From contig NZ_JALJCL010000006.1 in assembly GCF_023698535.1 (NCBI RefSeq), forward strand, positions 124,001 to 188,000: a DNA stretch of 64,000 nucleotides, read 5' to 3'. The first letter of the stretch is position 1. Every line of letters begins with the position of its first letter. Source of the DNA: Halorientalis regularis (GTDB taxonomy: Archaea > Halobacteriota > Halobacteria > Halobacteriales > Haloarculaceae). Made by a program: the position numbers and the translations under genes. The notes under the pieces are model-generated. The model made no database searches and had not been told where the DNA came from. It saw nothing but the letters and a program-made list of their open reading frames with translations. This document shows positions 13,578 through 14,806 of this stretch, piece by piece.

Positions 13578-14135
13578 TCACGCCGAGTCCTCGCCCGCCT
13601 CGGTCCACGCCGACAGATCCGACACGGCTTCGAGTCCCTCGTGGGCGAGTTCGAGTTCCTCCATCGCGACGCCGGACCGCTCCGCGACCAGTTCCGGCCC
13701 GGTCCACTCGACGGGCGTCGCCGCGAGACACCGCCAGCCCCGGACGGGCCGACCGGCCCCGTCGAGCAGGAAGACGTGGACCGGTCGCGGTTTCACCGTC
13801 CCCGCGACCCAGTCCTGGAGCCAGTCCCACAGCGTCGTGTCGTCGCCGACCCCACGCCGGAGTTCCAGGTTGGGTGACTGGGTGCGCCGGCGCTCGGTCG
13901 TCGGGAGTGACTCGCGATACTGGTCGAACCAGTCGCCGAAGTCCCACCAGGGGCTGTCCCCGGTGTCGCCCGCACCGCTCTCGGCCTCGTCGGGTGCCAC
14001 CTCGACGCGGACGGAGAGCCCGCGGACGGCCGCAAAGCCCAGTCGCTCGCCGGTGCCGATGTCGACCGCGAACCGGTGACGCGGGTACGGGTCCGCCGAC
14101 TCGTCAGCGGCCATCGGTTCGTCCCCGCCGGTCAC
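13578..14135 (-). CDS. Phage tail-tube (T4 gp19-like) protein, second copy
   Basis: This 185-residue protein has the gp19/eCIS tube plan: an opening strand RHRFAVDIGTGERLGF, a loop insertion (about residues 48-85), LELRRGVGDDTTLWDWLQDW, then VHVFLLDGAGRPVRGW and the closing helix MEELELAHEGLEAVS. These are the conserved parts of contractile-tail tube proteins, which stack as hexamer rings inside a sheath. It lies 18 nt downstream of another tube-type gene and ends 13 nt from a convergent membrane-protein gene. ATG 14114 is an alternative start. No sheath, baseplate or ATPase gene is near. Confidence 0.8.
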   Translation of the reverse strand: MTGGDEPMAADESADPYPRHRFAVDIGTGERLGFAAVRGLSVRVEVAPDEAESGAGDTGDSPWWDFGDWFDQYRESLPTTERRRTQSPNLELRRGVGDDTTLWDWLQDWVAGTVKPRPVHVFLLDGAGRPVRGWRCLAATPVEWTGPELVAERSGVAMEELELAHEGLEAVSDLSAWTEAGEDSA

Positions 14136-14153
14136 GCGCCGGTTCGGTGTCCG

Positions 14154-14594
14154 TCATGCCGTGCGCTCGAACCCCTCACAGACGAGTTCGAGCGATTCGA
14201 TGGCCACGTCCTCGCCGGTGGCGTCGAGTCGCGGAGCCTGGTAGGTCGCCGGCCACACGTCCCTAAGTTCCCATCGCGGACCCGCTTCGCCCTCGCGGTC
14301 GAGGACGACGATGGCGACCGTCCGGCGCGCCTCGTCGACCTTGCCCTGCTCGACCAGCTTGCGCCACTCGTACAGGACGATGGAGTCGTCCGTGACGCCG
14401 CTCCGGAGGACGACCCGGCCGTAGCGGTTCAGCCCCGCCAGCTGTCGGACCGTCGGTGGGTCGGTCCCCTCACGGTACTCGATCACATCTGTGCTGCTCG
14501 TGGGCTGGCGACACTCGGCGAAGCCGGCCTTGGCGATCCCGTCGATCTCGAGCAAGAACCGCACGTTCCGGTAGGGCCCGTGTTTGTCCGGCAT
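14154..14594 (-). CDS. Phage tail-tube (T4 gp19-like) protein, first copy
   Basis: The 146-residue protein begins RNVRFLLEIDGIAKAGFAEC, continues with STDVIEYREGTDPPTVRQL and GRVVLRSGVTDDSIVLYEWR, and closes with VAIESLELVCEGFERTA. This is the standard order of the T4 gp19/Afp-type tail-tube family, near its usual length of about 145-150 residues. The family forms the inner tube of contractile phage tails and extracellular contractile injection systems. It is followed after 18 nt by a second tube paralogue. A 212-nt spacer separates it from nrdJ; I see no convincing TATA box close to the ATG. Confidence 0.85.
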   Translation of the reverse strand: MPDKHGPYRNVRFLLEIDGIAKAGFAECRQPTSSTDVIEYREGTDPPTVRQLAGLNRYGRVVLRSGVTDDSIVLYEWRKLVEQGKVDEARRTVAIVVLDREGEAGPRWELRDVWPATYQAPRLDATGEDVAIESLELVCEGFERTA

Positions 14595-14806
14595 GGCTAC
14601 ACCGTGCCCCCCGGTCGAAGTTCGATGTCGACTGTGCGTCTCCCTGGCGCGAGGCGCTGATACATTTCGTTTCGCCTTCAGGTCGGACGTACATAACGAT
14701 ACTGCTGCCGACGACGAGAGAACGAAAATCGGCGCGTCCGCGTTCGGTCGATCGCTCCCCGTAGTGTCACACGCTCCAGGTGCGAAGGGAGGTCCAGCCC
14801 GTCAGC

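Follow-up and report, generated by a model that had tools for sequence, protein, structure and literature searches.

A sheathless two-gene tube unit of haloarchaea, possibly domesticated from a contractile injection system

The window, i.e., the whole stretch of 64,000 nucleotides of the Halorientalis regularis genome that was analysed, contains two adjacent genes, here called T1 and T2, which encode proteins related to the tube of contractile injection systems (CIS). The relevant features are:

14154..14594, minus strand: T1, Cis1-type tube protein of 146 aa with the full-length gp19 fold
within 14154..14594, minus strand: inter-ring loop of T1, present (..DVIEYREGTDPPTVRQLAGL..)
13578..14114, minus strand: T2, Cis5-type tube-adaptor protein of 178 aa in which the tube loop is replaced
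13878..14009 (approximate), minus strand: the replaced β2-β3 loop of T2, RVEVAPDEAESGAGDTGDSPWWDFGDWFDQYRESLPTTERRRTQ, 44 residues
14595..14806, minus strand: upstream region, 212 nt between the stop codon of the ribonucleotide reductase gene and T1

The first start listed for T2 is a GTG at 14135, which gives an open reading frame of 185 aa (13578-14135); the starts of homologues favor the in-frame ATG at 14114 (178 aa), which is presumably the one used. Neither a signal peptide nor a membrane segment was seen in T1 or T2 upon inspection by eye. In the genus to which the window belongs, T1 and T2 come after the ribonucleotide reductase gene and are followed in turn by genes for a 98-aa membrane protein, a winged-helix protein and a molybdopterin oxidoreductase.

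The first-pass annotation had recognized the gp19 tube plan in both genes, and the profile search it proposed bears this out. PF06841 (gathering score 28.2) matches T1 with E=6.9e-37 and 126.7 bits and T2 with E=2e-23 and 83.2 bits, the match of T2 being confined to profile positions 47-134. Both proteins also score above the cut-off of 62.4 bits of TIGR02241 (124.3 bits for T1 and 70.8 for T2). Among the NCBIfam models, CIS1_fam outscores CIS5_fam for T1, and CIS5_fam is the best model for T2. Scores against the CIS1 and CIS5 equivalogs NF053769 and NF053770 stay below the cut-offs (95 vs. 220 for T1; 77 vs. 260 for T2), as do those of Cis1 and Cis5 from a haloarchaeal CIS (113 and 125 bits). 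A sequence search of the PDB gave matches to CIS tube chains; entries 9r9h and 9rce also match by sequence. In AF2 predictions, which were made as single-chain models, T1 (pLDDT 84.8) has CIS tube and adaptor chains as its best PDB matches (Z 12-13.6), and T2 (pLDDT 82.3) has Pvc5 as its top match (Z 12.7), tied with Afp5 and Pvc1/Afp1. The pLDDT of T2 drops to 58-70 over residues 51-80, the region of the replaced loop.

Strands 2 and 3 of both Cis1 and Cis5 are connected by a Y.EG-type loop, which in Cis5 takes the form Y.EGG.N...H.LP. In tube proteins, this β2-β3 loop makes the largest contact between successive rings; when it is deleted, tubes of T5 and SPP1 no longer grow, and YSD1 forms hexameric rings (PMC8718954). 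The loop is retained in T1 of all 27 pairs of the kind found in the window. A Y.EGG-type loop is present in 67 of the 70 rows from CIS and in none of the 27 T2 proteins. As T2 is devoid of the inter-ring loop, it is a derived gp19 homologue and not a typical tube protein. The segment that takes the place of the loop is variable and of low complexity, with ~26-54 residues across species. The 40-residue acidic loop that had been noted in the second gene does exist in the genus of the window, where it has 44 residues, is rich in Trp and carries a net charge of -6; rather than being an insertion, however, it replaces the ancestral loop, and in genus g60 the segment is basic and rich in Arg and Pro (net +5 to +9).

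An acidic C-terminal tail containing LPDLDFPVGEGLPQGID is conserved in T1 of loci L063-L066, L070, L075, L076 and L117, and T1 of L077 has the shorter form LPRGVGVPQGID, suggesting a docking motif. In g60, the mean charge is -18 for the T1 tail and +6.5 for the T2 loop. This charge coupling is strong through that single genus only, i.e., through one evolutionary event, and was rejected.

The apparent isolation of the pair in the window is borne out at the level of the genome. The H. regularis assembly (4.03 Mb, 99.99% complete) contains exactly two gp19 matches, T1 and T2, and genome-wide searches found no sheath (PF04984), no GPW_gp25 (PF04965), no spike (Phage_base_V, PF04717) and no match to the N-terminal part of the haloarchaeal Cis15 ATPase, taken from L088. 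The sheath was likewise absent from all 26 pair genomes searched (that of the window and 25 others), whereas the control genomes with CIS do contain it; spike and gp25 were found in 0/22 pair genomes and in 3/3 CIS controls, and the N-terminal part of the Cis15 ATPase in 0/22 and 4/4, respectively. These four components constituted the search set. Thus, for sheath, gp25, spike and the Cis15 N-terminal part, the isolation of T1 and T2 is real and not an effect of the window's borders, and a complete cluster just beyond these borders, which would have explained the isolation, is excluded.

A profile search detected gp19 proteins in 77 of the 392 genomes of the order. Their genes occur in a CIS-type arrangement, as a tight pair like that of the window, or, in a few cases, as single genes. 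In the CIS-type arrangement, two tube genes lie ~1-1.5 kb apart, and a sheath was present in every such genome tested. The tight pair is found in at least 27 haloarchaeal species of six genera and two families (22 species from the 392-genome survey, four more, and Halorientalis pallida), and T1 directly precedes T2 in all of them. Several of these loci are located on multi-megabase contigs, indicating that the pair is chromosomal in those species.

The first-pass annotation had raised the question whether the pair keeps the same neighbors in related genera. It does so within a genus, but not between genera, where the pair is found in several unrelated neighborhoods. The flanking genes encode, depending on the genus, ribonucleotide reductase, a threonine dehydratase-like protein, a copper-ATPase-like protein or a glycosidase, or a GMC oxidoreductase and a HisC-like protein (names read from the sequence except for ribonucleotide reductase). 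Because the neighbors vary in this way, no conserved partner or cargo gene was found across the tight-pair neighborhoods; neither were defense-island neighbors found around the pair. Blocks upstream of the pair are conserved within genera. One of these, TAT.TA.G..CTG.AG..GAAACGAAATG, is conserved in four species of the Halorientalis clade in a MAFFT alignment, and the 212-nt region at 14595..14806 likely carries the pair's own promoter.

Several other gp19-type proteins of haloarchaea deserve mention. Single proteins encoded at L083:9464-10087, L084:8950-9609 and L082:9156-9758 have, as judged by eye, an N-terminal Tat-like signal (GRRTVLQTIGVAGAL..), to which a lipobox, LSGC, is added in the L082 protein; they are apparently exported tube-domain proteins, and no sheath was found in the genomes concerned. 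At a Natronosalvus-type locus (L085:9203-9721, genome G100, in which no sheath was found either), a lone gp19 protein adjoins a Peptidase_S74 (fiber chaperone) protein, and the locus also encodes two apparently exported proteins of ~2000 aa with hydrophobic C-terminal anchors. Another family of sheathless single gp19 proteins (L081:9174-9962 and L087:9261-9977) occurs in two haloarchaeal families and lies nearer to bacterial and viral tubes in the tree discussed below. The ATPase of a haloarchaeal CIS (L088:10477-12690) has the anti-phage ATPase IteA as its best NCBIfam match (106 bits, below the cut-off).

The origin of the pair was addressed by a phylogeny (IQ-TREE) in which, out of 161 tube domains, 23 rows each are tight-pair T1 and T2. 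The T1 proteins form one clade (100/99), which is nested in haloarchaeal Cis1 and adjoins the Cis1 proteins of L007, L017, L023 and L024. The T2 proteins, too, group in a single clade (100/98), located on the side of Cis5. T1 of the window shares 53-66% identity with the nearest haloarchaeal Cis1 proteins. Since each protein forms a single clade, placed with Cis1 and Cis5, respectively, the pair most likely results from a single extraction of both genes from a haloarchaeal CIS. The inner nodes of the tree are weak, which bears on later transfers at the family level. A phage origin was also considered and rejected, as only distant tubes of Streptomyces phages (<30% identity) and three IMG/VR contigs were retrieved.

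The pair has been both maintained and lost. The reading frames of both genes are open in 27/27 tight pairs, and dN/dS (NG86) is below 1 in 96 of the 96 within-genus comparisons, with values of 0.02-0.51 for T1 and 0.14-0.58 for T2. Judged from these sequence comparisons, the pair is under purifying selection and functional rather than a decaying remnant. In the sister species G339 (L112), the flanks are as in the genus of the window and the pair is missing. There, a gap of 222 bp (L112:9115-9336, read by eye) contains codons for IEAVSDLSAW, corresponding to the C-terminus of T2, and T1 and most of T2 are gone; the gap is a deletion scar. Profile searches gave no match to remains of the pair at the matching site in the pair-less relatives L111-L115. 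The scar and the shared flanks imply that the pair is probably ancestral in the window's clade, self-contained and dispensable.

How might two tube proteins function without a machine? By analogy with loop-deleted tube proteins, T2 should form rings whose extension is blocked on one face because the β2-β3 loop is missing, the basis of the analogy being phage tube proteins rather than Cis5. We propose, with a probability of about one half, that the pair is a domesticated, sheathless and self-capping ring or short barrel in the cell, with T1 providing the rings and T2 the cap; this is an inference with respect to both assembly and purpose. The genes for Cis1 and Cis5 would have been taken once from a haloarchaeal CIS and turned into a two-gene operon, which was retained without sheath, baseplate, spike and ATPase. 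T1 would form hexameric rings that can be stacked via the retained β2-β3 loop, and the loop-less T2 would join as a non-extendable ring and cap the T1 stack. The resulting ring or barrel would be cytoplasmic, short, closed and non-contractile. A partner protein might be held in its lumen or by the disordered extensions of T2 and T1, comparable to Hcp rings and their effectors, and no contraction-driven injection would be involved. The dispensability of the pair and the lack of a conserved neighbor or cargo gene in the neighborhoods speak against this proposal. Of the options listed in the first-pass annotation, i.e., a remnant, the tube part of a dispersed system, or a sheathless tube with a new use, the data favor the last one. 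More broadly, we tentatively suggest that haloarchaea have made a CIS tube into a ring or barrel that stands alone, lacks a sheath, terminates itself and has a cellular role of its own, with T2 as a natural loop-deleted cap, perhaps in one of several independent domestications that include the Tat-exported single tube proteins of relatives.

The main rival explanation is that T1 and T2 act as decoys in defense or interference. They would be incorporated into the tail of an invading contractile-tailed virus during its assembly, or into a CIS, either the cell's own or that of a competitor, where the loop-less T2 would poison the structure by halting its growth. A ring-forming tube subunit without the loop is, indeed, a natural chain terminator (PMC8718954), none of the genomes tested combines the pair with a CIS sheath, and the patchy presence of the pair with loss in sister species is reminiscent of defense genes. 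However, the non-overlap of the pair and CIS is not significant, with p ~0.055 before correction for relatedness and with the number of CIS genomes (47) estimated from tube counts. Moreover, the pair has no defense-island neighbors, and the nearest phage tubes, those of Streptomyces phages, are distant. The decoy explanation is unlikely.

Slightly less likely, the short tube could serve as a structural scaffold or as a chaperone of nucleic acids or proteins by means of its extensions, which in g60 are the Arg/Pro-rich T2 loop and the acidic T1 tail. The opposite charges of these segments in g60 suggest that they contact each other, but this charge pairing represents one evolutionary event, and the T1 tail is lacking in the window's own species. 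That the pair is the tube part of a dispersed system, with sheath and baseplate encoded elsewhere in the genomes and too diverged for the profiles, is improbable. Diverged proteins can escape profiles, and the fast-evolving tape-measure and cap proteins lie outside the four-component search set; yet sheath, gp25, spike and the Cis15 N-terminal part were found in 0/22 pair genomes and were detected by the same searches in haloarchaea with CIS. Considering the identity of 53-66% between T1 and its nearest haloarchaeal Cis1 relatives, the partners should not have diverged past detection. Finally, a degenerate CIS on its way out would account for T1 and T2 being single clades nested among CIS genes and for the scar in G339, which shows that the pair can be lost, but it is highly improbable given the open frames in 27 species of six genera, the dN/dS values below 1, the conserved upstream blocks and the retention of the identical two genes everywhere.

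A sheathless, self-capping ring or barrel would be at odds with the general view that tube proteins of contractile machines function solely as machine parts. A two-gene unit that is under selection in 27 species, without a sheath and with one of its stacking loops removed, would show that a tube can have an independent life, and T1 and T2 offer a small and readily expressed system to study the arrest of tube growth. The survey of haloarchaeal CIS used the sheath protein Cis2 as the query (PMC11566945), by which a sheathless pair would go unseen. Sheath-based surveys are blind to such units, which may thus be common. No description of sheathless tube pairs was found in the open-access literature searched.

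Among known systems, the haloarchaeal CIS, or archaeal T6SS, of Halogeometricum borinquense (PMC11566945) resembles the pair in the fold of the proteins and in gene order, with the tube first and the adaptor second. It possesses, however, a sheath, a spike, a baseplate, an ATPase and the Cis5 loop, whereas the pair comes without these components and T2 has lost its loop. The tube proteins Afp1/Pvc1 and adaptors Afp5/Pvc5 of AFP and PVC share the fold of T1 and T2, and both models have them among their top matches in VIA-align, but identity is only ~20-25%, and they belong to a complete contractile particle. In T6SS, orphan hcp genes encode tube-ring proteins away from the apparatus, and in Hcp2-Hcp3 heterohexamers (e.g., PDB 9vne, retrieved in the structure search with T2) two paralogues share one ring. 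The pair is comparable to the former in being encoded without an apparatus and to the latter in consisting of paired paralogues; however, the cells that produce Hcp own a T6SS, whereas no apparatus was found in the genome that contains the window. The loop-deleted major tail proteins of YSD1 and SPP1 (PMC8718954) miss the same loop as T2 and predict non-extending rings, but they are laboratory mutants of phages, whereas T2 is a natural paralogue. Thus, the kind of protein and the fold of T1 and T2 are known, and the sheathless two-gene unit is new as a variant.
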